Shown here: positions 15,612-38,197 of the stretch, one piece after another
How the letters are laid out: each line of letters begins with the position of its first letter
Position numbering within the stretch: the stretch's first letter is position 1
DNA from: Hanstruepera ponticola
Lineage (GTDB): Bacteria; Bacteroidota; Bacteroidia; Flavobacteriales; Flavobacteriaceae
Assembly: GCF_012931685.1 (NCBI RefSeq)
Contig: NZ_JABANC010000001.1
Span: 248,001 to 312,000 of the forward strand
Reading direction: 5' to 3'
DNA: 64,000 bases
Translations under genes and position numbers: made by a program
Notes under the pieces: model-generated
What the model was told of the DNA's origin: nothing
Seen by the model: the letters and a program-made list of their open reading frames with translations, nothing else
Database searches by the model: none

Positions 15612-16505
15612 TTATCTTATAAATTTATCTAGTACGTAAACTATTTGTAAAAGTGTAATATATGATACGCTAGCTAACATGAGTTGTTTAGCCGCTTTTT
15701 CTGTCATTTTTTTATAAAGCTGTATGGCATAATAAACCATTCCCATTCCTAAAACAGCCACAATAATGGCTGATATTGGTGTTAAATACAGACGCCCTGT
15801 AAACCCAAATGCTGGAATTAAAGACACCAACAACGTCCAAATAGAGTACATTAATGTTTGAAGAGCTGTTGCTTTATCTTGTTTTCCTGTAGGCAGCATA
15901 AAAAACCCACCTTTTTTATAGTCTTCATACAAAAACCAGCCAATCGCCCAAAAATGTGGGAATTGCCAAAAAAACTGAATAGCAAATAAGGTTCCTGGCT
16001 CAATACCAAAATCATCGGTAGCTGCAACCCAGCCCAACATAAAAGGTATGGCACCTGGTATTGCTCCAACAAAAACAGACAACGGTGTTTTTGTCTTTAA
16101 AGGGGTATAAACACAGGTATATAAAAATATAGAAATAGCCCCAAACATGGCTGTTTGCGGATTAATAATGTATAAAATAACAATACCCAGTATGGTAAAA
16201 ATTGTAGCGATGGTAAAAGCCACATTTACTGACATTCGTCCTGCAGCCACTGGCCTATTTTTGGTGCGATCCATTAAGGCATCTAAATCTCTTTCTATAA
16301 TTTGGTTGAACGCATTGGAAGCGCCTACCATAAAATAACCACCAAATGCCAGTAAAATTAGTGTTTGAAAATTGACAACCTCTGCTCCTAACAAATAACC
16401 AGCCAAAGACGAAAACACCACACTTAATGCCAAGCGCATTTTGGTAATTTCTTTAAAATCTGAAATTATTGATGGTTTAACTGTTGACGTTATTGGCTTA
16501 CTCAA
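15612..16505 (-). CDS. cyoE: Protoheme IX farnesyltransferase (heme O synthase)
   Basis: A polytopic UbiA-type prenyltransferase that attaches farnesyl to protoheme to give heme O, the precursor of heme A used by the aa3 oxidase. The first Asp-rich motif is intact (NAFNQIIERDLDALMDRTKNR) with RPVAAGRM after it, and the second loop motif follows later (DYKKGGFFMLPT). The protein has 297 residues and about nine helices. The start is TTG at 16503-16505: an in-frame stop lies upstream and no ATG exists before Met23, which would remove the conserved N-terminus. It is the first gene of the oxidase operon, with a good promoter 36 bases upstream. Confidence 0.93.
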   Translation of the reverse strand: MSKPITSTVKPSIISDFKEITKMRLALSVVFSSLAGYLLGAEVVNFQTLILLAFGGYFMVGASNAFNQIIERDLDALMDRTKNRPVAAGRMSVNVAFTIATIFTILGIVILYIINPQTAMFGAISIFLYTCVYTPLKTKTPLSVFVGAIPGAIPFMLGWVAATDDFGIEPGTLFAIQFFWQFPHFWAIGWFLYEDYKKGGFFMLPTGKQDKATALQTLMYSIWTLLVSLIPAFGFTGRLYLTPISAIIVAVLGMGMVYYAIQLYKKMTEKAAKQLMLASVSYITLLQIVYVLDKFIR

Positions 16506-16635: not shown

Positions 16636-18741
16636 TTACAAATCAAAATACCAGTTAAACAAGTCGGTTCTTATCCCTAAATTAAACCAAACCGTGTTAC
16701 TCTTTATAGCTGTATTGGTAACGGTATTGGGATTAAAGTCTCTAAACGTTACATCAGCAAATATTTTAAGATTGGTTGCTGGATTAATTAAATAACCTAC
16801 TTGCAAATTGGTAAAAAACGTTGTTGTTTTATTGCCTTGACCTAACTCAATACCGTTGTCACTTGGTCTATCGTTATAATTGCGATATATATCACCACCG
16901 TAACTAAAATTGTCATCAACCGTATTGAAATCCAGACCACGTTCCCCAACTATCATTTTGGCATTGGCAAACCAACGCTTGTAATGATAACGACCAATAA
17001 GTACAAACTCGCTAAAATTTGCTCCCCATAAATGCGCCATGGATTGGTTGTTGTGTCCATAATTCAATACAATTGTATTATGTGAATAGGTATATGGTCT
17101 GACGCGGTTGTATTCAGCTTGCAACATTAAGTTTTTAACCTTAAACGCATTAAAATATTTCAGACCTAATTGATAACCATACTTATTTTTCCAACTTTTA
17201 TTACCTCCTGTCATATCATCCAATGAAAATTCATCTAAAATGAATTGCCCATAACTGTAAATATTATTGGTAAATTTATATTTAGCTGATAATCCCATCA
17301 CCGCATTTCCTGCATCCTGTCCGGTTTGGAACTCAATAGCGCGATAAAATATAATAGGATTTAAATAACTCACATCAAAACCACGATTATCAGATTTAGC
17401 CCAAATAACCGATTCAAACATACCAATGTTCAAACGTTTGGTAGCATTCCAACTCAAAAAATGGGTAGCCATGTACTTGCTTAAATAAGCACCTTCTGGA
17501 TCAGTTGCTTCTGGTCTAGAATCTTTTAACCACATCCAAGTACTGGTGTATTTTATTTTCCAAAATTTAGTATTCAGTTTTAAAAATGGGTATGGACTTG
17601 CGACATCACTTGTAAATAAGGAGCGATACCCGTCACCAATAAAGTTTTTACTTTGCCCAAATTGTACATTAAAAAATTTGATAGGAGAATAGGACAAATA
17701 AGCTTCAGCTACAGGATAATCATAGGCATCTTTTTTAAATTCTTTAGCTATACCACGACCAGGAATAATGGCAATTTCATCAGCTGCCCTAATGGATTCA
17801 GCATATTGATTGAAATATTGTGGAAAACGACCTTGACTTTCAAATACTGAAGTATAAAACGTTAGCTTTTTACCCAAGCCACCTTGAAACATGATACCAC
17901 GTGTATTATTAAAGGTGCTATTAAATTCTGCTTCGGTATCTTTCCCTACTTCAAAATCAAAAATAGGATCAACTGTAAACCAATAATCTTTTCCTTGAAC
18001 TCTAACAAAGCGTTCATTCCATAATTTTCTGCCAGCAAATGATGATTTTTCTTTGGCTAATTTTTCTTGTTCGGCTTCAAAGTCATAATAGTTCGCTACG
18101 TCTTCATACATGTAGGGTTTTGATCCTGTATGACTATTAGTACCTACTAAATTGATATTCCTATCAAACTGCGCATAATAACTGTGGGTAAATGGGATAT
18201 TTAATGTACTTGAAAACTCTCTATTTGAAAAGGGTTGCAGTCCTTTGTTTACACTATCATATTCCGATTTAGCAGCATTCTCGAGCTCCGCCAATTCTTC
18301 ATCTTCGGATAAATCTTTTGTAGTCACAGATTGATCAACTAACGGAATTCTAATACCCATTGAATATTGCTTGAATGTGGCATTACCATTGTAAGTTGCT
18401 GGCTGTATTTTTGGAAAATCTTCAAACACACGTCTCGCTTCATCTTTCAACTCACTATACATGGCGTCAACATATATCACACGAAATTCTCCTTTGGCAT
18501 CAACTTCAAATAGGATAACAACTTCGCCGTTATAATTATCTTCAGTTACCTTATCTGGGACTTTAAATTCATTGAAGATTTTAGTGTAGACCTGTTTATC
18601 AAAACATGCTTGAAGTGAATCGACTGAGGTGCTTTCACATTCAGGAAAAACAGGTGGTTTTTCAAAAAATAAATCGTCTTGAGAATACAGATTATATTGT
18701 ATGGCACAAAGCACTATTACCAGAAATGGTTTCCAATTCAT
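16636..18741 (-). CDS. RemB-like gliding motility/surface protein with N-terminal TonB-type domain
   Basis: A 701-residue exported protein. After a signal peptide (residues 1-20, ending LYSQ) comes a TonB C-terminal-like module (about 25-135) with Cys35 and Cys46 (VFPECE, then LQACF), GEVVILFEVDAKGEF and FPKIQPA. The remainder, from about 180, is rich in Tyr/Trp/Asn and alternating strands, ending in aromatic residues as outer-membrane barrels do. Length, layout and genomic position near sprA fit RemB, a mobile cell-surface protein needed for gliding in Flavobacterium johnsoniae. I am reasonably but not fully sure, since I cannot align it. An outer-membrane capsule-assembly (Wzi-like) barrel is an alternative description of the same C-terminal part. 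Confidence 0.65.
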   Translation of the reverse strand: MNWKPFLVIVLCAIQYNLYSQDDLFFEKPPVFPECESTSVDSLQACFDKQVYTKIFNEFKVPDKVTEDNYNGEVVILFEVDAKGEFRVIYVDAMYSELKDEARRVFEDFPKIQPATYNGNATFKQYSMGIRIPLVDQSVTTKDLSEDEELAELENAAKSEYDSVNKGLQPFSNREFSSTLNIPFTHSYYAQFDRNINLVGTNSHTGSKPYMYEDVANYYDFEAEQEKLAKEKSSFAGRKLWNERFVRVQGKDYWFTVDPIFDFEVGKDTEAEFNSTFNNTRGIMFQGGLGKKLTFYTSVFESQGRFPQYFNQYAESIRAADEIAIIPGRGIAKEFKKDAYDYPVAEAYLSYSPIKFFNVQFGQSKNFIGDGYRSLFTSDVASPYPFLKLNTKFWKIKYTSTWMWLKDSRPEATDPEGAYLSKYMATHFLSWNATKRLNIGMFESVIWAKSDNRGFDVSYLNPIIFYRAIEFQTGQDAGNAVMGLSAKYKFTNNIYSYGQFILDEFSLDDMTGGNKSWKNKYGYQLGLKYFNAFKVKNLMLQAEYNRVRPYTYSHNTIVLNYGHNNQSMAHLWGANFSEFVLIGRYHYKRWFANAKMIVGERGLDFNTVDDNFSYGGDIYRNYNDRPSDNGIELGQGNKTTTFFTNLQVGYLINPATNLKIFADVTFRDFNPNTVTNTAIKSNTVWFNLGIRTDLFNWYFDL

Positions 18742-18792
18742 TGATACAATTTTTATGAAAGGAGAAAGATACTATTTTTTTAATAATGTCAT

Positions 18793-18829
18793 AAAAAATA
18801 CCGCTATCAAAACTTATTAATAGCGGTAT
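18793..18829 (-). terminator. Terminator of the downstream tonB-type gene
   Basis: ATACCGCTAT (18798-18807) / ATAGCGGTAT (18820-18829), followed on the minus strand by T6. It lies between the TonB gene at 18847 and the RemB-like gene. Confidence 0.8.
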
Positions 18830-18846
18830 GTTACAAAAAACTGTGT

Positions 18847-19641
18847 CTAATTTTGAATAGTAAATGAAATTGGTAAGGTATATAAAACATCAACTGTTTT
18901 ATTACCATGTTGACCAGGTGTCATTCTCGGTAATTTATTGACTACTCTATTGGCTTCTTCTCCCAGCTTATTGTGAGTTGCTTGGGTTTGTAAAATCTCT
19001 ACATGGCCTTGTTTATTGATTTTAAAATTAACATAAATTTTCTGTTTTCCTTTTAACCCCAATCTTGGACCTAAATCTGTATCAAATTTCTTTTGAATAA
19101 ACTTTGATAGTTTATTGGACATACATTCACGTCTCTCTTGATTGGATGTTGCTTTTTCACAGCCAGGAAAAATAGGTGCTTTTTCAACCAAAACAATATT
19201 CATTGGTTCATCTGGCTTCTTTAAAACTTCAATTTTCTCCGACGTAATCGTTTTGTCAGTAGTAGGCAACTCCTCCTTAAAAATATCATCAGCTGTTTCT
19301 TTAACATCATCATTATTATCAGCTACTTCAATTTGATTAGAAAATTTAGTTGGTGTTTTAGGCGTTTTGATAATTTCTTTCACAGGCTCTTTGTAGATTT
19401 CATATTTATCCATAGAGAATTCTGATGGGACATCATCAACAAACGCCATGTCTGAAACTTTAGTTTCCGTTTTTAGGAATTTCATTTCTAAAAGGCCGTA
19501 AGCAAAAAGCAAACACAGAATTAAGCCAATTTGAAAGTAGAGCGTTGAGTTTTTTTGTAAATTTACCTCGTGCTTTTGCGATTTTCTCACGGTTTTCTCA
19601 TTTTGCCGAATGAGTTCGTGGTTTTTCTTTGAAAAATTCAT
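18847..19641 (-). CDS. Energy transducer TonB-type protein (1)
   Basis: A 264-residue protein with one transmembrane helix (about 34-53) after a basic cytoplasmic tail. A periplasmic linker rich in Lys/Glu/Pro/Thr (about 60-150) and a TonB C-terminal domain (about 158-264) follow. The domain contains IFPGCEK with Cys161, a second Cys173 (RREC), then YVNFKINKQGHVEI and VNKLPRMTPGQHGNKTVDVLYTLPISF. TonB proteins carry energy from the ExbBD motor to outer-membrane receptors. No exbB/exbD genes are in this window. The linker lacks the poly-proline stretch of the next gene. It has its own terminator, and another terminator separates it from the second TonB gene. Confidence 0.88.
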   Translation of the reverse strand: MNFSKKNHELIRQNEKTVRKSQKHEVNLQKNSTLYFQIGLILCLLFAYGLLEMKFLKTETKVSDMAFVDDVPSEFSMDKYEIYKEPVKEIIKTPKTPTKFSNQIEVADNNDDVKETADDIFKEELPTTDKTITSEKIEVLKKPDEPMNIVLVEKAPIFPGCEKATSNQERRECMSNKLSKFIQKKFDTDLGPRLGLKGKQKIYVNFKINKQGHVEILQTQATHNKLGEEANRVVNKLPRMTPGQHGNKTVDVLYTLPISFTIQN

Positions 19642-19693
19642 AATACTATAGTTTAAATTGTTAATATTATGATAAAATCACAATAAGCATACC

Positions 19694-19730
19694 AAAAAAG
19701 AAATCCCGTTACAAAATATGTAACGGGATT
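19694..19730 (-). terminator. Terminator of the second tonB-type gene
   Basis: AATCCCGTTAC (19702-19712) / GTAACGGGATT (19720-19730), followed on the minus strand by TTCTTTTTT. It lies 27 bases after the stop codon at 19758. Confidence 0.85.
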
Positions 19731-19757
19731 TTAATTTATTTTAAGAACTACTTAAAT

Positions 19758-20477
19758 TTAATCTTGTACTTGGAACTTAATTGGTAAATAATATGGCACT
19801 CTTACAGCCTTACCACGTTGTTTACCAGGTTTCATTTTTGGTAGTAAACCTATCACGCGTCTAGCTTCTTTTTCCAAACTTGGATGCGGTGCTCTAACTT
19901 GTACATCAACAATATCACCTGTTTTATCTATCTTAAAGAAAACACGTATTTGCTGTATACCTGATAAGCCTAACTCTTGAGCTAACTCTGTATTGAATTT
20001 CTTTCTGATGAAATCATTCATCTTTTTATTCATACAGGCTTTTTTTGCATCATTATTACCACTTTCACAACCTGGAAATACAGGAACATTTTCAATGACT
20101 GCAAAAGGTACCTCAACATCTTCTTCAACTTCTTCAACTTCAACTTCTTCAACTTCGACAATTTCTTCTTCTTGACTAGTCTCTGTTGATTCAATAACCG
20201 TTTCCTCAACTTCTTCTTCATCTTCAACTACCTCAATAACTTCAGGAGCAGCTGGTGGTGGAGGAGGTGGTGGTGGCGTAGTAATCTGTTCAGTAATTGG
20301 AACTTCTTCATCAAGTTCTTCATCTAAATTCAATTGTCCAATATCAATATCTGATTTGTCATATGTTTTGTAGTTTATTGCATAATTAGTTAAAAACAAC
20401 ATTAATGCTAAACCAATAGCAAAAAACAGCGAACTGTTTCTACCAACATTTGATTCTGGATTTTTTTTAGGCTCCAT
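19758..20477 (-). CDS. Energy transducer TonB-type protein (2), poly-Pro and Glu/Val-rich linker
   Basis: A 239-residue protein with a transmembrane helix (about 17-33), an acidic linker with eight prolines in a row (about 67-76), a long Glu/Val stretch (about 80-122), and a TonB C-terminal domain (about 134-239). The domain has VFPGCES with Cys137, Cys148 (KKAC), VFFKIDKTGDIVDVQVR and LLPKMKPGKQRGKAVRVPYYLPI. The N-terminal NSSLFFAIGLALML matches the NSTLYFQIGLILCL of the neighbouring TonB gene, so the two are likely an old tandem duplication. It is probably transcribed with gcvH and VanZ upstream (gap to VanZ 58 bases). The Glu/Val stretch is encoded by a tandem DNA repeat. Confidence 0.9.
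   Translation of the reverse strand: MEPKKNPESNVGRNSSLFFAIGLALMLFLTNYAINYKTYDKSDIDIGQLNLDEELDEEVPITEQITTPPPPPPPPAAPEVIEVVEDEEEVEETVIESTETSQEEEIVEVEEVEVEEVEEDVEVPFAVIENVPVFPGCESGNNDAKKACMNKKMNDFIRKKFNTELAQELGLSGIQQIRVFFKIDKTGDIVDVQVRAPHPSLEKEARRVIGLLPKMKPGKQRGKAVRVPYYLPIKFQVQD
20112..20157. repeat. Imperfect tandem repeat (units built on AACTTCTTC) inside the tonB-type gene
   Basis: Five or so copies of a 6-9 base CTTCAA/TTCTTC unit run head to tail and encode the Glu-Val-Glu-Glu stretch of the TonB linker on the minus strand. The unit length is a multiple of 3, so slippage would change linker length without breaking the frame. Confidence 0.65.
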
Positions 20478-20535: not shown

Positions 20536-20919
20536 TTAATATTTTTTAACGTCAGTTTTTTTGACGAAGACTATTATCATACTCATAAACAATACACCTA
20601 GTATATTTGCTAGCATATCAGCCTCATCATAAAACCGTGAGATGGTCAGTACTTTTTGTAGTACCTCAACAATTGTACCAAATACTGCACAAGAGATGCC
20701 TACAAGCAGTAACGTTTTGATTTTTGAGAACTCAAATTGGTGCTTTATAGCATAATACCACAATAGAGTAAGTAAACCATATGCTGTAAAATGAAAGATT
20801 TTATCTCCATAAGAAGGCACAATAGAGTCTAAACCTCCAAAATCTACTGTTATTAAGCTAACAATTAGTAATGATACGGTATAGAAAACAGCAATTTGTA
20901 CGCTTCTTTTTTTAAGCAC
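20536..20919 (-). CDS. VanZ-like family membrane protein
   Basis: A 127-residue protein with four transmembrane helices (about 9-27, 42-60, 68-87, 103-121). It fits VanZ-like proteins: [20 protein letters not shown] with the conserved His/Tyr in helix 2, FGTIVEVLQ at the end of helix 3, and [15 protein letters not shown] leading into helix 4. The family is named after the teicoplanin-resistance accessory VanZ, but the function of these short members is not established. The first 8 bases overlap the end of gcvH, which argues for one transcript. The pairing gcvH-VanZ is common in Flavobacteriia. Confidence 0.88.
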
Positions 20920-21292
20920 CTACTAGCTCTTTGTATTCATCAGAAGACATAAGACCGTCCACTTGAGATACATCCGAACATTTAACCTTTATCATCCAAC
21001 CATTGCCGTAAGGATCAGTATTTACTGTTTCAGGCTCATCTTCTAAAGCCTCATTAAACTCAATAATCTCACCAGCAACAGGTAGAAATAAATCAGATAC
21101 TGTTTTGACAGCTTCAACGGTTCCAAAAACCTCATCAGCTTCCAAAGTTTCATCAACTGTTTCAACTTCAACGTAAACAATATCTCCTAATTCACTTTGT
21201 GCAAAATCAGTAATGCCAACCGTAGCTACATCACCTTCCAACTTTACCCATTCATGATCTTTAGTATACTTTAATTCGGATGGTATATTCAT
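20912..21292 (-). CDS. gcvH: Glycine cleavage system H protein
   Basis: The lipoylated shuttle protein that carries the aminomethyl group from the P protein to the T protein in glycine breakdown. The 126-residue length is standard. Conserved blocks are [24 protein letters not shown] near the N-terminus and the lipoyl site at Lys63 in [15 protein letters not shown], followed by [18 protein letters not shown]. The other glycine cleavage genes are not in the window, as is usual for this family. A full promoter consensus precedes it at 21310-21339, so gcvH is the first gene of a short operon with VanZ and probably tonB. Confidence 0.95.
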
Positions 21293-21350: not shown

Positions 21351-24300
21351 TTAATTACCAAAATTATATCTCAATGTAATTCCAGAACGGATTGTAGTTT
21401 GTGGAAAGGCCGTTGAAATGGCATATTCTGAAAATGCATAGTCAAAATAGAAAATACCTGTTAGGTTTTTACTGAATGCATAATCAGCTGAAAATTTGGC
21501 TGACCAAATAGTTTGTCCAGAGGTTATTTGATTATTGTCTAAATCAAGATATCTAATTATGGTTTTATTATCACGGACAGACACATCTGCTTTCATGTTT
21601 AAATCACTTACAATTATTCGTTTAGGCCCAGCAAGTTTAGATCTAATTCTAACATCCTTAATTCTATATCCCAATCCCACTATATATTCATTTCCTTGAA
21701 TTTCAGTCATCAAATTATTATCAAAACTTAAGGATAATAATCGGTCTTTTTTCATTTCTGCTAAAATTTTAATGGAGTTTTTCATCTCCATATCAATACG
21801 GAATAGCGGTGTAAACATCTCCGATAAATTGATATTACTGTATATGGTTTCATTTTTAAAATTACCACTTTGATCAACTTCGGTTGGGTTATCAGGATCA
21901 TAATCCAAATTTGAACGGAATTGATTAATGGTATAATTTGAACGGTATCCATGAATTATTGAAAAACGCTTAAACCTATCTTTAAACCATTTTAAATTCA
22001 TAAGCCCTGTGTACTTGATATCCCAGTTAGGAATAGGTACATCTCTAAAAGCACTTAATGAGACTTTTCCAGCATCTTGACCCGAATAAGCTGATAAGAA
22101 TGAGGGTAGTAATACTGCTTGACTGTTTTTACCAAATCCAACAGGGTATCCTTCTGCATCTACAGGGAATGAGGTAGTTCCGTAAAATTGTTCTGCCAAC
22201 CTATTGGCCACCTGGATTCTATTATTTCTAAAATCATTAAAGGTTTGTGATTCCCTCTCATCACTTGCGCTAAAAGCAGTCTTAATTAAAAGTGTTGATA
22301 TGTTGAAATTTCCGAAGGAGTTAGGTGTTAATGATTCATACTCCAATTCATCACCTAAATCATTCACACGATAATTTTCAGTATAATTTTCAGCATAAAT
22401 TCTGTTCCCAACTAAATCTATTTTAAGGTCATTAAATGGCTCAACACTAGCTGTGTAATCAAATTGACGTGTTTTGTTTACGCGATACTGATCATTAAAA
22501 TCTGGATAAAGCGTTAGCCATCCTCTTCTAGCTGCCATTTCTCTTACATCATTTTGACTACCAAAAGTGAATCCAGCAGTTGGCTTTAAGGTCCCAATAA
22601 AACCAGGCGTTTGTAAATATCCTGGAATGTATGTACCGTTGGTTTCGGCATAGTTAAAAGTCATTCTTTTAACGCTCGTTAAAATACCAATTCCTGTATT
22701 CAATAATTTAGTGCCACCACTATTGGAAACTTTTTTAGGTGGTTTTTTAGAATCATCACCATCTTTTGATGGTGGTGATGCCGTTTTACTATCTCTACTT
22801 ATTGGTCTTGAAGTACCACTCCTCCTCACAGGCTTTTTCTTTAAACCTATATAGTTGTAGAATTTATTCATATTAAGCGTGGTGTTCAACGTATGCTGAT
22901 TAGCATTTGAAATAGTATTACCTAAATCATACGTCTGACCATCTACTTCCAAATCACCAAATAGGTCTGATCCCTTCTGCCATTGAAACTCTCCACTATA
23001 TGAGTAAGTTGCATCAATAAATGCAAAGGTTGGTATTTTATTAATAGGGATCTCATAATTAACGCCTAATTGTTGGTATTGCGTATTAGGGTCTCCAAAA
23101 TCAAAGAATCCATCCCAAACATCTAATTCTGGATCTTGTTCTCCATTTAGGATATCATTTTTAAAGTAATTTCTAACAATATTCACATTGGATGCTGTAA
23201 AATTCAAACTCAACGAATTAGTTAAGTTGTAATTAATAGTATAACCAAAATCAAAGGTATAGTTTCTTCTGTATAACTCTTCAAGACCAATGTTACCACC
23301 CGTTAAATCGACTTCCCTAAATTTTTGTTTATTAAACTGCCTGTTGATATTTGTATTTACAACAAAACTTGCTGGAAGTGGATTAAAATTAAAATCTTTT
23401 AATAGTTTCCAATACTTTCCTGTGAACAGAGAATCATTTTTCTTGAATGGCTCAATAACCAATGGATTGAAATTATAGGCATAATTTACACCTGTTCTTA
23501 CATTTTTATCAACTGAACTCTCTATTTCAAAGTCTCTATGTTCAACTTTATTGTATGAATAATTGAATGTGAAATTTTCAACATCATAGAATCGTGGCGT
23601 AGCTTCACCGGTCCTGATTTTACGAACACCAATAAAGTTTATACTCTTACGTTTGGTATAATTCTCGTTGACATTTAAAATAGAATCATTGTTACTATTG
23701 TTGTCCAATTGGGTTTGTAATTCAATGTCCCTATAAAATTCATCATACTTTGGTGTGATTTTTTCTTCACTAACTCCATAATTAAAAGGAATTTCAACTC
23801 CCCATTTTTCAGGAAGTAATTGTCCAATGTTCACATTGGTAACAACATCATATTGCACAACATCTTCAATACTTCTTTCTAAAGGTCCTTGTTCTATGGT
23901 TCCAAAGCCAGAAGTGCTTTGCCTACCAGTAGCACTTACGCTAGCAAAATCAGCTATATTAGAGTCCATACTCAATATTGCAGCCCAACCACCTTTGCTT
24001 TCCATATCAGATAAACGTAACTCATTAAACCAAAGCACACCACATTTATCTATATCAGATCGGTTTTTTACCCCTACCATCAATGTTCTTATATCTCCAA
24101 AATTTGGATTTCCTACAATTGCCACACGATGGTAAAAATCACCACTACCTAGTCCTGTTGGCAACGGATCGTACTCTAAAACCTCACCTGTTACTTCCTC
24201 ACTTATTACATCGTAAAAAGTTGGATCTGGGCTACTAATATTTCCGGAAGCTATTGATTTTGCCTTAATCTCTTGAAGAACTTTTAACGGTAAATTTATT

Positions 24301-27300
24301 TGATTTTCTTCAGGCCATAAGGCTTCGCGAGACAATCCTCTAGACACTTTTAAAGGTACTTCAATCTGATAATAGTTTTGAGTCAAATCATTACCCATCC
24401 TAATAAAACCAACTAAATCATCATCATCTAAACCTGGAACATTACCTGGTTCAGCATGCATAAACATTCTAATGCGCTTATACTGTCGCATATCCACGTT
24501 GATATTTTTAAAAACAGCCCGACCATCATGTGATTCTAAATCACAAACATCTACCAATAACGATTGCTCATTTTGTCTAATAACAGTGTTATTATTAAAC
24601 AACTCTTCTGGATCAACACCAGGAGGTGATTGGTAACTACCATCATTCTTCAAAGTACTAATCACACCTACAGAAAATTCCGTATTATCTAAAGAAGGGT
24701 CTCCTTCATCCTCGTCCAATGTTTGTGTATAACGTCTCCATTCGCTTCTCACTAAATCTAGTGTACCAAATCTCATAACCGTTTTTTCGGAGAATTCTTT
24801 AAGATACATACGTGCAAAACGAATAGACCTTAAATCTGTTATCCCTCCAATTGCATCAGAAAATTCGGTTACAGGAATTCTAAATTGATACCAAATTGGT
24901 GTAACCGTTTGTCCATTGGGAAGACTTCGTATTTGCGTATTTTTAATATCAACAATGTACGGGTTATCGATGTTTAAGGTAGAAGGTGTTAGTTCAACTT
25001 CATATTCAAAATAACTATCAATCGTGTTCATGGTATTATCACGATTAACGTCTTCTACATCAGGTTGGGCATTGGCTCCACGATCGGTATCAGAAAATGT
25101 GTCTGGTGAATTTCCTTGAACGCCGTTATATCGCTTATAACGATCAAATATGTCACCATCAGCATTTAAAAAATAGGTGTAATTATCATTTGCTGGATCG
25201 TTCAAAGATGAATATGTTGGGAACTTTATACGTTCATCAGCATCATCATAACCATCATAACCTACATCTTGATTCGTACGTTCTTCACCCGTTGTATCAA
25301 ACGCATAAATTAGTGATTGGTTTTGCGGATAAACAGTTCCCCAAGAAGGTGATTCAGGTAGAACACCAATTACGTTACCATCAGCTGGTAGTCCATTTTC
25401 ATATAGCTTACGTCCATCTTTTATAATATCTTCAGATATATTACCTAAATTAAATACTAATTTACCACCAGTGTTACCTGGGTTGTCTTGATAAGGATCT
25501 TGTAACCAGAATTCAATATACTCTACGTTTGCCTGCTCAAAATCTGTTGAAGTTAACTGCCTAGTTATACCTGCCCAGCTATCTTCAGGATTGGTTAAGG
25601 TATTTGTACTGATGTCAACATCTGTAGTTTGGAAATTATAAGGCCCTCTTTCTTCAGGATAAAACGCTAAATCTAAAGTATTTAATATGGTAGTCTGACC
25701 TTGTGCTATGTCTTGTTGCGGAAATAACTCATTGATAAAAACACGACTCGTGAACAAATCTGAAATATCATCATCGGATATGCCATCTGGTGCTCTGTTA
25801 CTATAAAATATTGGATCAATAAAATACCAGTTTAATAATGCTCGGTTAAAACCTTGTTCAATACCATTTTGGTCATCATCATTGTTATTAATTCCTTTTG
25901 GTCTACTGGATAAGAACCAAGATTGCGGAGATTTTAAATCGATATTATTTTGGGTTCCTTCAAAATCATCTACATAGGATGTTGCTTCACCTTGAAAATC
26001 TGTTCCTTTAGGTGAGCCAGGTGCTAGATAAGCAAACTCGCCTCTTAATGACACATTTGAAGGAACATCTGTATCAATGTTTGGTAATTTATTAACCATT
26101 CGTGTCAGGAATGGGACTTCAGTCGAATAATTTCCGTTAAAGCCAAAAATATGGTTGTTAATAGGTTCTTGGGCATAATTGGCTTTTTGCGTAATTGGCC
26201 TCTCATTTAAATGCAACCAGGTACCACCAATAACAAAATTCTCATTGAATTTATGTTCAACATTTACGCCTGTAAAACGTTTTGTCTGTTGACCAAATAC
26301 CGCATTATTCTCTGTTGAAACTTGAATTGGCGTGTTGGAAGCCTTTAATGCTTCATCTAAAATTTGAACTGTTCCTTGCTGATAATTAACTGTGTAGTCA
26401 ATTCCCTCAACCAAGGTACGTCCACCTGCAGTTACAGTAACTGAACCTCTGGGCACATTAAATGCACCTATTGGAATTCCGTCTCCACCTGATGATTTAT
26501 AGCGTCCTTTTAACTTAAATTTATTCTTATCGGCCTCTTCTAAAGCTGCTGTTTTGGTTTCTTTATATAAAATATCATAGACATACTTCGCTTGATTATC
26601 GTTATAGGTAGCCGTATTGTTGTAATCCTCTCCACCTAAAGACAGCGTGTTGAATAAATACTCACCAAAAGGCTCAACCTTTGTGAATACAATTTTTCCA
26701 TTTTGAGGTAAAACGGTTATTCCTGGAACAAAATCAAAAAAACCATCACCATTGGTTTGCGGATCGTTGTTAAAGTTTAATCTATCAAAATTAAAAAGTC
26801 TTAATAGTGTTGTTTCCTGAATTGGTTCACCATTAAATGGTGGAAATGGCGTACCATCTACTGGAGTGATAAAATTTAACGGCGAAGCTTCGTTATAAAA
26901 AATGTTCAATTTAAAATCCTCTTGACTTAATTGGTAAGCTCCAGTGTCATAGATGTTTTTCATCATCAAATCCCAAATTGGTTGCTGAACATTTGTGACT
27001 GGACTTTTCAATAACTTTAAAACCAAACTGTTGTTTGTAACAGTCGTTATACTGCCAGAATTATCAACACCTGTTGGATCAACACCTCCGTTAGCAAATT
27101 CACCAACTTGAAAAACTTGACCACCAACTGTATATTGAAATGCAACAGCTATAACTTCATCATTTAATAATCGCTGATTTAATGAAATATAACCTAACTG
27201 CGTATTTACTGTATATTCCTGTCCTTCAATTAATTTTCTGGCATTCTCCAATTTAGCATAATCAGAGCCTTCATTTACTCTGTTTGATAAACTACCAAAT

Positions 27301-28550
27301 CCTTGTTGTGCGGTGGCAATATCTCTAATCAAATCATTTAACACAGAACCAGACCCGATAGCTGTTGGATCATAATCGTTATTTCCGTTATCAGGAAATG
27401 CATTAGGCCCAGCATTTAAAAACCCTGGTGGTATAGGTTGTAAGTAAATATCATTGTCCACTGGATCTGGGTTTGACTCCCCTAAATCTTGAATTGCTAC
27501 AACATTCCTTACATTTTCTGTTCTGTTTGTTCTATTGGTTACCCAAACCTCAATTCTTGTAATTTGAACATTGGTGTTTATAAAAGGGTAATTGGCTAAT
27601 GCCTCATCATAATTATCTCTAAAGTAGTGTGCCAAAAAGAAGTGACGGTTTTCATCATAATCTCTAGCAAAAAAATCAAATTCTTCTAGTGTTCCTCCAC
27701 CTTGCGCCACAACGGTTCTTCTGTCCGAACGTTGTTCAGAAAAAACACCTGTGATGGTAGTTCTACCAAATTGAAGCTGGGTTTTTACACCAAATAAACT
27801 TTGTGCACCCGTAATCAAGGAGCTATTGAGTGGCATACTCACATTACCTACTTCAATTTTTTGAATAATATCATCTTCTGTTGGTGTATATTCTAACTTT
27901 ATAAGATTTTGAAAATCAAAAGTTGATTCGGTGTCATAGTTGGCTGTTACTTGTAAGCGTGTTCCAACTTTCCCTAATAAACTTAAACTAATACGTTGAT
28001 CAAAATCAAAAGTAAAACTACTTCTATTCCTAGGAGAAAAAGCTGGATTATCCTGTTTGGTGTATAAAATACCCAAATCTATTTCCACAGAACCTTGTGG
28101 TATTATTTCAATAGTATTACTTCCAAATATGGTTTCAAAGAAACCGGAATTGATATAGAATTCTGGCAATAAATTTTTCTGTTCTTCTTCGGATCCTTCT
28201 TTCTTACCGTCGAATGCATCAATTTGCTGCTTATAATAGGATTGAATGTTTTCTTTTATAACAAGATCTTCATACTCTTCTCGTGTAAGGATAATAGGGT
28301 AATTAATATTAAAACTTCCAACCGTTTCTGTGTAGATATATCTATCTGTTATCGGATCATAGGTGTATTTAGATTCAATACTATTGGGATTGGGCATCTG
28401 CATATTTCCCAAATTAAACCCTGTGGCGGTTGAGTCCTGCTCTACAGGCTCTTGTGACCACGCCATCACTGAATACAAAAAAGCGACAGCAATAAAAATA
28501 TAATATTTACTTGATGTGTATAAACTCGAGTTGGTAGTATTCAAAATCAA
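21351..28550 (-). CDS. sprA: SprA, outer-membrane translocon of the type IX secretion system
   Basis: SprA forms the very large single-chain barrel through which type IX cargo crosses the outer membrane. Homologues in Flavobacterium and the Porphyromonas Sov protein are about 2400-2500 residues; this one has 2399. A signal peptide (about 1-33, ending AWSQ) is followed by long beta-rich stretches with many Tyr/Asn/Asp. Recognisable blocks include SRPKGINNN with the nearby FYSNRAPDG, and WFNELRLSDMESKGGWAA. A Lys/Pro/Ser-rich low-complexity segment lies near 1880-1925, and the last residue pattern is RYNFGN. The start is TTG at 28548-28550, directly after the ruvA stop codon; the alternative TTG at 28544 would change two residues. 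No ATG gives a signal peptide. It is co-transcribed with ruvA. Confidence 0.95.
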   Translation of the reverse strand: MILNTTNSSLYTSSKYYIFIAVAFLYSVMAWSQEPVEQDSTATGFNLGNMQMPNPNSIESKYTYDPITDRYIYTETVGSFNINYPIILTREEYEDLVIKENIQSYYKQQIDAFDGKKEGSEEEQKNLLPEFYINSGFFETIFGSNTIEIIPQGSVEIDLGILYTKQDNPAFSPRNRSSFTFDFDQRISLSLLGKVGTRLQVTANYDTESTFDFQNLIKLEYTPTEDDIIQKIEVGNVSMPLNSSLITGAQSLFGVKTQLQFGRTTITGVFSEQRSDRRTVVAQGGGTLEEFDFFARDYDENRHFFLAHYFRDNYDEALANYPFINTNVQITRIEVWVTNRTNRTENVRNVVAIQDLGESNPDPVDNDIYLQPIPPGFLNAGPNAFPDNGNNDYDPTAIGSGSVLNDLIRDIATAQQGFGSLSNRVNEGSDYAKLENARKLIEGQEYTVNTQLGYISLNQRLLNDEVIAVAFQYTVGGQVFQVGEFANGGVDPTGVDNSGSITTVTNNSLVLKLLKSPVTNVQQPIWDLMMKNIYDTGAYQLSQEDFKLNIFYNEASPLNFITPVDGTPFPPFNGEPIQETTLLRLFNFDRLNFNNDPQTNGDGFFDFVPGITVLPQNGKIVFTKVEPFGEYLFNTLSLGGEDYNNTATYNDNQAKYVYDILYKETKTAALEEADKNKFKLKGRYKSSGGDGIPIGAFNVPRGSVTVTAGGRTLVEGIDYTVNYQQGTVQILDEALKASNTPIQVSTENNAVFGQQTKRFTGVNVEHKFNENFVIGGTWLHLNERPITQKANYAQEPINNHIFGFNGNYSTEVPFLTRMVNKLPNIDTDVPSNVSLRGEFAYLAPGSPKGTDFQGEATSYVDDFEGTQNNIDLKSPQSWFLSSRPKGINNNDDDQNGIEQGFNRALLNWYFIDPIFYSNRAPDGISDDDISDLFTSRVFINELFPQQDIAQGQTTILNTLDLAFYPEERGPYNFQTTDVDISTNTLTNPEDSWAGITRQLTSTDFEQANVEYIEFWLQDPYQDNPGNTGGKLVFNLGNISEDIIKDGRKLYENGLPADGNVIGVLPESPSWGTVYPQNQSLIYAFDTTGEERTNQDVGYDGYDDADERIKFPTYSSLNDPANDNYTYFLNADGDIFDRYKRYNGVQGNSPDTFSDTDRGANAQPDVEDVNRDNTMNTIDSYFEYEVELTPSTLNIDNPYIVDIKNTQIRSLPNGQTVTPIWYQFRIPVTEFSDAIGGITDLRSIRFARMYLKEFSEKTVMRFGTLDLVRSEWRRYTQTLDEDEGDPSLDNTEFSVGVISTLKNDGSYQSPPGVDPEELFNNNTVIRQNEQSLLVDVCDLESHDGRAVFKNINVDMRQYKRIRMFMHAEPGNVPGLDDDDLVGFIRMGNDLTQNYYQIEVPLKVSRGLSREALWPEENQINLPLKVLQEIKAKSIASGNISSPDPTFYDVISEEVTGEVLEYDPLPTGLGSGDFYHRVAIVGNPNFGDIRTLMVGVKNRSDIDKCGVLWFNELRLSDMESKGGWAAILSMDSNIADFASVSATGRQSTSGFGTIEQGPLERSIEDVVQYDVVTNVNIGQLLPEKWGVEIPFNYGVSEEKITPKYDEFYRDIELQTQLDNNSNNDSILNVNENYTKRKSINFIGVRKIRTGEATPRFYDVENFTFNYSYNKVEHRDFEIESSVDKNVRTGVNYAYNFNPLVIEPFKKNDSLFTGKYWKLLKDFNFNPLPASFVVNTNINRQFNKQKFREVDLTGGNIGLEELYRRNYTFDFGYTINYNLTNSLSLNFTASNVNIVRNYFKNDILNGEQDPELDVWDGFFDFGDPNTQYQQLGVNYEIPINKIPTFAFIDATYSYSGEFQWQKGSDLFGDLEVDGQTYDLGNTISNANQHTLNTTLNMNKFYNYIGLKKKPVRRSGTSRPISRDSKTASPPSKDGDDSKKPPKKVSNSGGTKLLNTGIGILTSVKRMTFNYAETNGTYIPGYLQTPGFIGTLKPTAGFTFGSQNDVREMAARRGWLTLYPDFNDQYRVNKTRQFDYTASVEPFNDLKIDLVGNRIYAENYTENYRVNDLGDELEYESLTPNSFGNFNISTLLIKTAFSASDERESQTFNDFRNNRIQVANRLAEQFYGTTSFPVDAEGYPVGFGKNSQAVLLPSFLSAYSGQDAGKVSLSAFRDVPIPNWDIKYTGLMNLKWFKDRFKRFSIIHGYRSNYTINQFRSNLDYDPDNPTEVDQSGNFKNETIYSNINLSEMFTPLFRIDMEMKNSIKILAEMKKDRLLSLSFDNNLMTEIQGNEYIVGLGYRIKDVRIRSKLAGPKRIIVSDLNMKADVSVRDNKTIIRYLDLDNNQITSGQTIWSAKFSADYAFSKNLTGIFYFDYAFSEYAISTAFPQTTIRSGITLRYNFGN

Positions 28551-35578: not shown

Positions 35579-38197
35579 CTAAAATCTATATTGTAGTGCT
35601 AATGACATTGATCTACCGGGCAATGGTCTTGCTCTAACATAATTATCCTGACCTTCAGTAATACTACCTTCTTCAACTTCGGTAACACCAATTGAATCAA
35701 AAATATTGTTAGCTGATAGGTTAACAAATAAATCTTTCGTAATTCCTACGTTTACAAATCCATTTACTATCATAAAACCAGGCATTACCAATTCATTTGT
35801 ATCTTGTGCATATGCCTTTGTTTGTCCAATAAAACTTAATCCTACAGCATTCTGTTTAGTTGTACCAAAATTATAAGATGGTATGATATTGTAAATTAAG
35901 TCTGGTTGTCTTCTTGGCGTATTTCCCTTATTGTCCCCAGAGTTTACTTCAGCATCAGTATACGTTATTGCACCTCTTAAATTAAAATTATTAAATCTAT
36001 AATATCCTTCTAGTTCAACACCAATAGATTTATAATCATTCTCAATAATGCTATTTGAAGTAGCTTCAAAACCTCCTTCTTCTCTAGTTTTGGCATAGAA
36101 TGCAGTTGCATAGATTGCACCGTTTGCAAAACCTCGCTTATATCCTAATTCTGCTTGATCTATAAAATCTAATGCATTAATTCTATCTCCATCAAGATAA
36201 TCTAAACCTGAAAACAAAATTCTATCTGCCTTTGCTGATGCACCACTTGAGTATCTACCAAAAACAGATTGGTTATCCTGTATCTTGAAATTTAATCCTA
36301 ACGAGTAAGAAACATAATCATAGTCATAATCAACAGCGGTTGGGTTAGCAGTATCAACAGCCGAAACATCTTGTTCTGGCACAGAAATAAAACCGTCGTT
36401 ATTAATATCGAACTCCGTTTGAACTGTACCAGCAAATGAACCATCAACACGTCCTTTATCATATCTCACACTACCATCAATTGTAAATTTTTCACTAGCT
36501 TCTATTGTTACGTTTGCATATGGTGCAGAAACATTATATTGAGTGTCATAATTTCTTGTACAACAGTTACCCCAAAATGGTACTCCGTAAGCATATAATC
36601 CATTATCACTTAAAGGATTACTAGCTGAATCAAATACATTAATCAATCTAGCATTGTCATCATTTACCTCTTGTAGGTAAGAATTCCATAACCATGACAT
36701 AGAAATATCTTGAATTGCCTTAAAATATCCTAATGTAACATCAACATTACCAAACGATTTAGACAATTTAAAATCATTCATAAAATTGTTAAAATTATTC
36801 AGTTCAACATCAAACATGTGAATTCTAGCCACTAAACTATTATCTGCCACTGATGTTCCATCAGTAAACGATAAAGTTGACCCTGTCCCAAAAGATTCAG
36901 CAATAGTTGATGCCGAAGCAACTTCTGCAGGAAATGGTGAAACAAATGCTCCTTTATTTGATGAATACCTTCCATTATTTCTAACTTTCCAGTTATTTCC
37001 TAAATCAAATGAAGCTTCAAAGCCAACCGAAGTAGAGATTGGATTCATTCCATCGGCAACATTTGATCGTCTCAATTGACCATCACCGCCTAAACCTACA
37101 TTTTGCGTTAAATTAGATGTATGTAAAGATCCAGTTGTTGCATCAAAATTTGGAGCATCTCCCCAATCTGGATCACTATTAGTACCTGTCACCTTCATTG
37201 GCATTGGTAAATAAGCAACAGCTTTATCATTCAAATACTTACCATATACTCTAACATAACCATTCTTGAAATCTTTAGTGAAGTTCAGCTTAAATTGACC
37301 TCCATTATTAGCTGTAAAACCTGTTTCACGTACACCTTCACCAACTCTGTAAAATCCTCCCATATGGAAATACAAATCTTCTCCTATCCTTGATCCATAA
37401 TCAAAATCTGTTCTGAAAGAATTATAATCTAAACCAAAGCTAGTTGCAATTGATCCTCCTTCTACTCTACCTGTTTTACTAATAATATTTATTATTCCTC
37501 CAGGTGCGTTGGATGATAATGTTGAAGCAGATCCACCTCTAATTGCTTCAATACGTGCAACATTAGCATCAAATCTTGTAAAGATATCTGACGTCGCAAA
37601 CGCTATATCTCCATATAATAAAACGGGGAGACCATCTTCTTGCAATTGAACATATTTAGATCCCCCTGAAGAAATGGGCACACCACGAACCGCTATATTA
37701 GCATTACCTTCACCACCTGATGATTCTGATCGAATACCAGGTAATGTTCTAAAAATTTCTGCAGTTGTTCTCGGAGCAGATTCAACAATTGTTTTAGGCT
37801 TCATTGTTGTTATTGAAACACTTGATTCAATTTTTGACCTAGGATTTACAACTCCAGTTATAATAACCTCATCTAATGATTCAGTATCCTCATTCATCAC
37901 AATATCTAGTGTGACATCACTACCAGTGACCTCAACATTACTATCTACACTAGCGTAGCCTAAAAAACTAGCTTGTATAATGTATGTACCATCTTCCACA
38001 TTTTCAATGACAAAATTACCGTCTATGTCTGAAACTGCACCTTGCGTCGTTCCAGAGATAATTACATTTACACCAGGAAGCGTCTCTCCATTAGTATCGC
38101 TTACTGTTCCTGAAATATTAACTTGCCCCATTACAAATGATGTAGTTAATACCAAGATTCCTAAAAATAACTTTTTGAGCTTTGTTAGTTTTTTCAT
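35579..38197 (-). CDS. TonB-dependent receptor, probable sucrose/fructoside uptake
   Basis: An 872-residue outer-membrane receptor. A signal peptide (1-24, ending VMGQ) is followed by a carboxypeptidase-like regulatory domain (about 25-110, VNISGTVSDTNGETLPGVNV), the plug (about 115-235, with VRGVPISSGGSKYVQ and IRGGSASTLSSNAPGGIINI) and a 22-strand barrel ending in MSLALQYRF. There is no SusD-like gene beside it, so it is a stand-alone receptor like SuxA of Xanthomonas rather than a SusCD pair. It is the first gene of the operon; 122 bases separate it from the glutaredoxin gene. Transcription is probably controlled by the LacI-type regulator through the operators at 38285-38317. Confidence 0.9.
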   Translation of the reverse strand: MKKLTKLKKLFLGILVLTTSFVMGQVNISGTVSDTNGETLPGVNVIISGTTQGAVSDIDGNFVIENVEDGTYIIQASFLGYASVDSNVEVTGSDVTLDIVMNEDTESLDEVIITGVVNPRSKIESSVSITTMKPKTIVESAPRTTAEIFRTLPGIRSESSGGEGNANIAVRGVPISSGGSKYVQLQEDGLPVLLYGDIAFATSDIFTRFDANVARIEAIRGGSASTLSSNAPGGIINIISKTGRVEGGSIATSFGLDYNSFRTDFDYGSRIGEDLYFHMGGFYRVGEGVRETGFTANNGGQFKLNFTKDFKNGYVRVYGKYLNDKAVAYLPMPMKVTGTNSDPDWGDAPNFDATTGSLHTSNLTQNVGLGGDGQLRRSNVADGMNPISTSVGFEASFDLGNNWKVRNNGRYSSNKGAFVSPFPAEVASASTIAESFGTGSTLSFTDGTSVADNSLVARIHMFDVELNNFNNFMNDFKLSKSFGNVDVTLGYFKAIQDISMSWLWNSYLQEVNDDNARLINVFDSASNPLSDNGLYAYGVPFWGNCCTRNYDTQYNVSAPYANVTIEASEKFTIDGSVRYDKGRVDGSFAGTVQTEFDINNDGFISVPEQDVSAVDTANPTAVDYDYDYVSYSLGLNFKIQDNQSVFGRYSSGASAKADRILFSGLDYLDGDRINALDFIDQAELGYKRGFANGAIYATAFYAKTREEGGFEATSNSIIENDYKSIGVELEGYYRFNNFNLRGAITYTDAEVNSGDNKGNTPRRQPDLIYNIIPSYNFGTTKQNAVGLSFIGQTKAYAQDTNELVMPGFMIVNGFVNVGITKDLFVNLSANNIFDSIGVTEVEEGSITEGQDNYVRARPLPGRSMSLALQYRF

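Follow-up and report, generated by a model that had tools for sequence, protein, structure and literature searches.

Wzi, the outer-membrane lectin of group 1 capsules, is a barrel protein that to our knowledge carries no TonB-type domain. The C-terminal domain (CTD) of TonB, as represented by Pseudomonas aeruginosa TonB with FoxA (6i97) and by the Helicobacter pylori structure 5lw8, consists of a helix, two strands, a second helix and a last strand. Here, we describe a RemB-like protein in which this fold and this type of barrel, each known by itself, are predicted to occur in combination. Its gene lies in a window of 64,000 nucleotides from the 3.18 Mb genome of Hanstruepera ponticola (Flavobacteriaceae; assembly GCF_012931685.1, contig NZ_JABANC010000001.1, positions 248,001 to 312,000), beside two genes for TonB-like proteins, and all three adjacent genes encode homologous TonB-CTD-type domains with an invariant pair of cysteines.

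In Flavobacterium johnsoniae, sprA is Fjoh_1653 and remB is Fjoh_1657, according to the available part of PMC4910214, which places remB under 'adhesin-like' in its Table 6 and speaks of RemA/RemB as secreted by the type IX system; the available part of PMC6801697 calls RemB adhesion-like. This description of an adhesin-like, secreted protein differs from the one given here. We liken the H. ponticola protein to F. johnsoniae RemB by gene order, as the F. johnsoniae locus tags fit the order sprA-gcvH-vanZ-x-remB of the family loci, and sprA and gcvH lie upstream in all 20 family loci fetched for RemB. The nearest named relative of the 701-residue protein is that of Hanstruepera neustonica (95% identity). 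A domain in front of a barrel is also found in the TonB-dependent transporters of Bacteroidota, one of which is encoded in the window (35582-38197; PF13715); their N-terminal carboxypeptidase-regulatory-like extension has an immunoglobulin-like fold (available part of PMC12204202), and such a transporter receives TonB, whereas RemB itself carries a TonB-type domain. The available parts of PMC5714932, PMC4910214, PMC6801697 and PMC12204202, a set outside which the original RemB papers fall, contain no mention of a TonB-type domain combined with a barrel in RemB.

Results

Three adjacent genes share a cysteine-bearing TonB-type domain

The original prediction, made from the DNA letters, was that a Cys-containing TonB-type domain recurs in three neighbouring genes, and its motif, spacings, placements and homology were all borne out. 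The three open reading frames (ORFs) it named were confirmed on the minus strand (Table 1). RemB has the motif FPECE with its two cysteines 11 residues apart, whereas both TonB-like proteins have FPGCE with spacings of 12 (middle protein) and 11 (upstream protein). By inspection, the domain directly follows the signal peptide in RemB, and is C-terminal, behind an N-terminal hydrophobic segment, in the two others. RemB aligns with the upstream TonB-like protein at 31% identity over 113 residues (BLASTP, E 9e-14), the two TonB-like proteins align with each other at 45% over 115 residues (BLASTP), and a profile-profile comparison by hhalign gave a probability of 99.2 (E 6.4e-20) for homology of the domains. 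A chance or convergent Cys motif is ruled out by the BLASTP E-value, the invariant pair and the shared fold.

The Cys pair is present in 80 of 81 RemB ORFs and in all of the upstream (75/75) and middle (68/68) TonB-like proteins; the 81st RemB (L055, Lacinutrix himadriensis) is a broken ORF, and both cysteines can be read in another frame of its DNA. The frame change lies inside the TonB-type domain in that assembly (L055:6440-6870) and represents either an error or decay. Exactly two cysteines occur in 55 of the 81 RemB ORFs. In a set of 72 domains of every kind drawn from 15 genomes, which was collected with a profile of Cys-bearing members and is thus biased toward this outcome, 69 have both cysteines, two have neither (one of them cut short) and one has a single Cys. 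Because both cysteines are kept in nearly all domains, the pair in RemB most likely forms a disulfide.

The two TonB-like proteins score 38.6 and 27.9 bits against Pfam TonB_C (PF03544), above the curated cut-off of 24.6. RemB of the window falls short of it, with 16.3 bits for the whole protein and 20.5 for the domain alone, and is absent from the seven matches of a TonB_C search in its own genome. At E 0.01, 69 of 75 RemB domains match PF03544, and a profile of 16 TonB-type rows, none of them RemB, recovers the domain in all eight RemB-bearing genomes supplied.

Predicted fold of the RemB domain

For fold prediction, we used residues 22-138 with an alignment restricted to RemB rows (alignment A2, 75 of 81 sequences), to keep TonB sequences from influencing the outcome. 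AlphaFold2 returned a model with a mean predicted local distance difference test (pLDDT) score of 94.3, whose secondary-structure elements recur in a model of the full-length protein. The top 13 rows of a Foldseek search against the PDB are all TonB CTDs, counting FusB as a stated TonB homologue; three of them are receptor-bound (6i97, 9dc4 and 2gsk), and the first row is TonB bound to FoxA (E 7.7e-4). In the structural alignment (VIA-align), TonB or TolA domains fill the first 23 places by Z, with 6i97_D superimposing at Z 8.7 and 2.1 Å over 86 residues. A PHROGs search gave nothing. The fold check proposed with the original prediction thus returned a TonB-CTD-like fold rather than an unrelated one, and the assignment of residues 26-135 to the TonB/TolA CTD superfamily, by predicted fold and by sequence homology, is supported.

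The barrel and the route of secretion

Residues 179-694 are predicted to form a barrel of about 18 strands. The best structural match by Z is E. coli Wzi (2ynk; Z 19.6 over 351 residues, runner-up 17.7), which resembles the RemB model in the barrel and in the part just before it. The Wzi family PF14052, however, has no match at E 0.01 among 49 RemB members (alignment A1, 49 of 81 sequences) and none in the H. ponticola genome, although it does match in 3 of 21 genomes searched. Scans against Pfam and NCBIfam assign the barrel to no family. As modelled, the barrel is Wzi-like in fold and, as tested, not a member of PF14052.

An NCBIfam scan of RemB found neither of the type IX secretion tails TIGR04183 and TIGR04131, while the same genome holds 73 matches to TIGR04183 and 16 to TIGR04131, every one outside the window. 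The anatomy of RemB therefore argues against the type IX secretion stated in PMC4910214, which we regard as disfavoured.

A single old gain of the domain

A profile of whole RemB finds matches in 361 of 395 genomes across the class and in 125 of 196 across the order, counts in which part of the matches concern the TonB-type domain alone. Among the 30 family genomes listed, 24 have a full-length RemB match, which includes the N-terminal domain in 24 of 24, and the remaining six have matches to TonB-type domains only, in a search that scores a few best candidates per genome. Outside the family, the barrel matches listed all start at model position 152 at least, and none of 20 fetched outgroup barrels, 526-564 residues long, matches the RemB domain by BLAST. 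The barrel thus occurs across the class without the domain, and as full-length RemB of the family always has it and the outgroup barrels lack it, its insertion behind the signal peptide and ahead of the barrel dates from close to the family's base. Four outgroup barrel proteins that were scanned match no Pfam or NCBIfam family. In some genomes of the class, two relatives of the RemB barrel stand side by side (for example, G120 contig 13 and G003 contig 18).

For a domain tree, 88 domain matches yielded 72 translated rows, of which six short or very divergent ones were dropped; ten RemB rows from other loci brought the total to 76. The 18 RemB domains group together with support of 100/99, set off by a stem of 1.55 changes per column. 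This is the pattern expected of a single gain, and the RemB clade falls outside the one (92/77) that contains the domains of the present neighbours. The tree has 114 columns for its 76 rows, 30 open forks and an unsettled bootstrap, and a long-branch warning names the RemB group and one outgroup row, so that placements beyond the RemB clade itself are weak. In approximately unbiased (AU) tests, a tree that joins RemB to one or the other neighbour is not rejected (p 0.264 and 0.192). Within the genome, the RemB domain scores 57 and 44 bits against its neighbours and 56 bits against an unlinked TonB-like protein. The phylogeny envisaged in the original prediction hence lends no support to recent exchange, as the RemB rows stand together and apart from the neighbours' clade. 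Of the proposed transfer between neighbours, a recent event is contradicted by this separate clade and by bit scores no higher than to the unlinked protein; the AU tests neither show nor reject an ancient one. We conclude that there was a single old gain and no recent swapping with the neighbours.

Gene order bears on the source of the domain. We located sprA in 14 of 15 genomes tried. In each of 14 loci fetched, all from genomes without a fused RemB (L207-L220; nine genomes from six other families of the order and five family genomes that lack a full RemB match), the gcvH region downstream of sprA is followed by a TonB-like gene. Three genomes of another family have the order sprA-gcvH-(vanZ)-tonB-tonB-x-cyoE-cox3 (L209-L211; x in L209 is an inositol monophosphatase gene), and three family genomes without remB have sprA-gcvH-vanZ-tonB-cyoE-cox3 (L217-L219, with an extra opposite-strand ORF in L217). 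Of 20 outgroup loci, several of which end at contig ends, three have the barrel gene beside genes of cyoE or cox3 type, and one genome (G400) has sprA, tonB, barrel and cyoE on one contig. This order puts tonB genes near the landing place and makes it plausible that the 3' end of tonB was copied into remB; descent of the domain from a neighbouring tonB, as an old event near the base of the family, is thus a plausible origin.

The adjacent TonB-like genes

Both neighbours have an N-terminal hydrophobic anchor and a spacer, by inspection, in addition to their TonB_C scores. The motor-binding motif of E. coli-type TonB, Ser-x-His-x-Leu-x-Ser (available part of PMC12204202), was not found on inspection in the N-terminal part of either, and we therefore call them TonB-like. 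Among 80 named loci, some of which end at contig ends, both TonB-like genes stand beside remB in 66, only the upstream one in eight, only the middle one in one and neither in five. In 20 further family loci, tonB lies beside remB in eight and was not found there in 12, all 12 of which keep the domain. These 12 belong to one genus (g2), two other loci of which do have tonB genes, so tonB may have been lost from this position once or a few times. Between vanZ and remB, 11 of the 12 have a gene for a DeoC-type aldolase; more widely, of the 15 family intervals inspected, 14 have an ORF of this type, assigned by a Pfam run on L160 alone, immediately upstream of remB (L160-L165, L167-L169 and L171-L176; the exception is L172). 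Because the domain is kept where no tonB adjoins it, it does not depend on a tonB next door, and a TonB from elsewhere could serve. The TonB-like genes track sprA rather than remB.

The domain is reused repeatedly in the H. ponticola genome, with eight matches. One is fused to a BlaR1-type M56 peptidase (L003:244-1695; G000 C6, about 1098189), beside which lies a gene for a 158-residue protein with the Cys arm and no Pfam match. Two neighbouring Cys-bearing TonB_C-type proteins of 377 and 154 residues (L006:598-1731 and L007:1222-1686) score 24.2 and 20.0 bits against the cut-off of 24.6.

The locus

From upstream to downstream, the conserved block runs sprA, gcvH-like, vanZ-like, the TonB-like genes for 239 and 264 residues, remB-like, cyoE-like and oxidase-type genes. 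Table 1 gives the coordinates.

Table 1. Features of the remB locus, in window coordinates.
Feature	Position	Strand	Basis
remB-like gene, 701 aa; predicted signal peptide, TonB-CTD-type domain, helical linker and Wzi-like barrel	16636..18741	-	Sequence, models, structure searches
RemB signal peptide, residues 1-21, no lipobox	18679..18741	-	Inspection, no predictor; model helix 3-17
RemB predicted TonB-CTD-type domain, residues 26-135; C35 (18637-18639), C46 (18604-18606)	18337..18666	-	Alignment, AlphaFold2, structure matches
RemB linker, residues 141-178, predicted helix 148-167; weakly conserved (mean 0.56)	18208..18321	-	Model
Predicted outer-membrane barrel region of RemB (residues 179-701) with about 18 strands; top match by Z E. 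coli Wzi (2ynk)	16639..18207	-	Model
Gene for middle TonB-like protein, 264 aa, with hydrophobic stretch at about residues 33-52 (by inspection)	18847..19641	-	Pfam, BLASTP
C-terminal domain of middle TonB-like protein; C161, C173	18850..19194	-	Pfam, BLASTP
Gene for upstream TonB-like protein, 239 aa, with hydrophobic stretch at about residues 15-36 and a proline-rich acidic spacer behind it	19758..20477	-	Pfam, BLASTP, inspection
C-terminal domain of upstream TonB-like protein; C137, C148	19761..20102	-	Pfam, BLASTP
vanZ-like gene, in conserved block	20536..20919	-	Pfam VanZ 28.5 bits, just below cut-off 30.1
gcvH-like gene, in conserved block	20912..21292	-	Name by inspection; conservation by BLAST
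sprA, type IX secretion translocon gene, head of conserved block	21351..28550	-	Pfam PF14349 SprA_N, E 8.8e-193
cyoE-like (UbiA family) gene, downstream; marks remB side of block	15612..16505	-	Pfam

Discussion

We propose, at about even chances, that RemB is a Wzi-like barrel of the outer membrane whose periplasmic N-terminal TonB-CTD-type domain docks a partner by strand addition. The signal peptide and the barrel together indicate the periplasmic location, and the domain would accordingly hang just beneath the outer membrane, with the putative disulfide pinning its N-terminal arm (EKPPVFPxCE) to the first helix. The last strand, in which Lys-Gln-Tyr at 124-126 is almost invariant (K124 95%, Q125 100%, Y126 98%), would grip a strand of a periplasmic or outer-membrane partner, much as TonB grips the TonB box, and would thereby connect the barrel at the surface with a further component of the envelope. 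The domain would have been inserted once in the family ancestor, plausibly by copying the 3' part of tonB. Unlike that of TonB, it is N-terminal, carried by an outer-membrane barrel and equipped with a Cys-bearing arm, and inspection and the model reveal neither an N-terminal inner-membrane anchor nor a periplasm-spanning spacer in front of it, which suggests that RemB is not itself an energy transducer.

Several points weigh against this proposal. The docking partner and its TonB box are hypothetical, and the conservation of the last strand fits a binding surface but may be structural. The Foldseek E-values for the domain are modest, the first row being the sole one below 0.001, and when the PDB was searched by sequence with RemB profiles, no TonB entry came up and the matches looked like chance, although the TonB-type profile A3 does find TonB entries in such a search. 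A Z of 8.7 is by itself middling, and the case leans on the uniform superfamily of the top rows and on sequence homology. The full-length model is moderate (five models with pLDDT from 45.9 to 67.7, the best) and does not fix the geometry of the domain relative to the barrel; the Wzi match concerns the fold alone, and by Foldseek E-value AlgE and OprD-type porins rank ahead for the barrel. The bias of the 72-domain set also counts here.

The RemB domain might instead pair with the CTDs of the true TonB-like proteins, so that an inner-membrane motor pulls or moves the barrel, a model that we consider unlikely. TonB CTDs are dimeric in some crystal structures, the domains are homologous, and both genes adjoin remB in most of the named loci; yet the domain persists in the 12 of 20 family loci where no tonB was found beside remB, with the caveat that these, all of one genus, may reflect a single loss, and tonB lies next to sprA in all five fetched family genomes (of six) without a full RemB match. 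Since tonB is kept there, the TonB-like proteins have another task too. About as unlikely is that the domain binds peptidoglycan, anchoring the outer membrane or immobilizing RemB. Such binding has been reported for the TonB CTD of E. coli, but the usual solution for such tethering is an OmpA-like domain, and RemB appears dispensable, as 6 of 30 listed family genomes lack a full match. A slightly poorer prospect is that the domain merely aids folding of the barrel or plugs it from below and has no partner; related barrels occur without it in the other families sampled, so its addition may be minor, whereas the Cys pair and near-invariant polar residues such as K124 and Q125 suggest that it has a particular role, even though they too may be structural.

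The remaining alternatives appear less probable still. In what might be called a reversed TonB, the force-bearing domain would be anchored at the outer membrane, and either the inner-membrane motor or the gliding machinery would drag the Wzi-like, glycan-binding barrel through the membrane as a moving grip; we regard this as improbable. That RemB is a type IX-secreted surface adhesin with its domain outside the cell agrees with Table 6 of PMC4910214 and the description in PMC6801697, as far as these are available, but is very hard to reconcile with a protein that has no type IX tail and no NCBIfam match and whose C-terminal part is modelled as barrel strands. Just as doubtful is a recent move of the module between neighbouring genes, for example by gene conversion: the genes adjoin and the AU tests do not reject the groupings, but the long-stemmed RemB clade and a similarity to the neighbours no higher than to an unlinked TonB-like protein speak against it.

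If RemB has the architecture described here, a TonB-type domain sits on an outer-membrane protein, where annotation can miss it, the Pfam score being below the cut-off. A literature search returned no paper on a TonB tied to the type IX secretion translocon, and such a link would merit separate study. For RemB, one of the named accessory proteins of gliding in Bacteroidota, the question shifts from which adhesin is secreted to what an outer-membrane barrel docks onto. Should the reversed-TonB model be true, the barrel itself would be the moving grip on the surface. For relatives of Flavobacterium, our results suggest that the 'adhesin' RemB connects the cell surface with a structure within the envelope.

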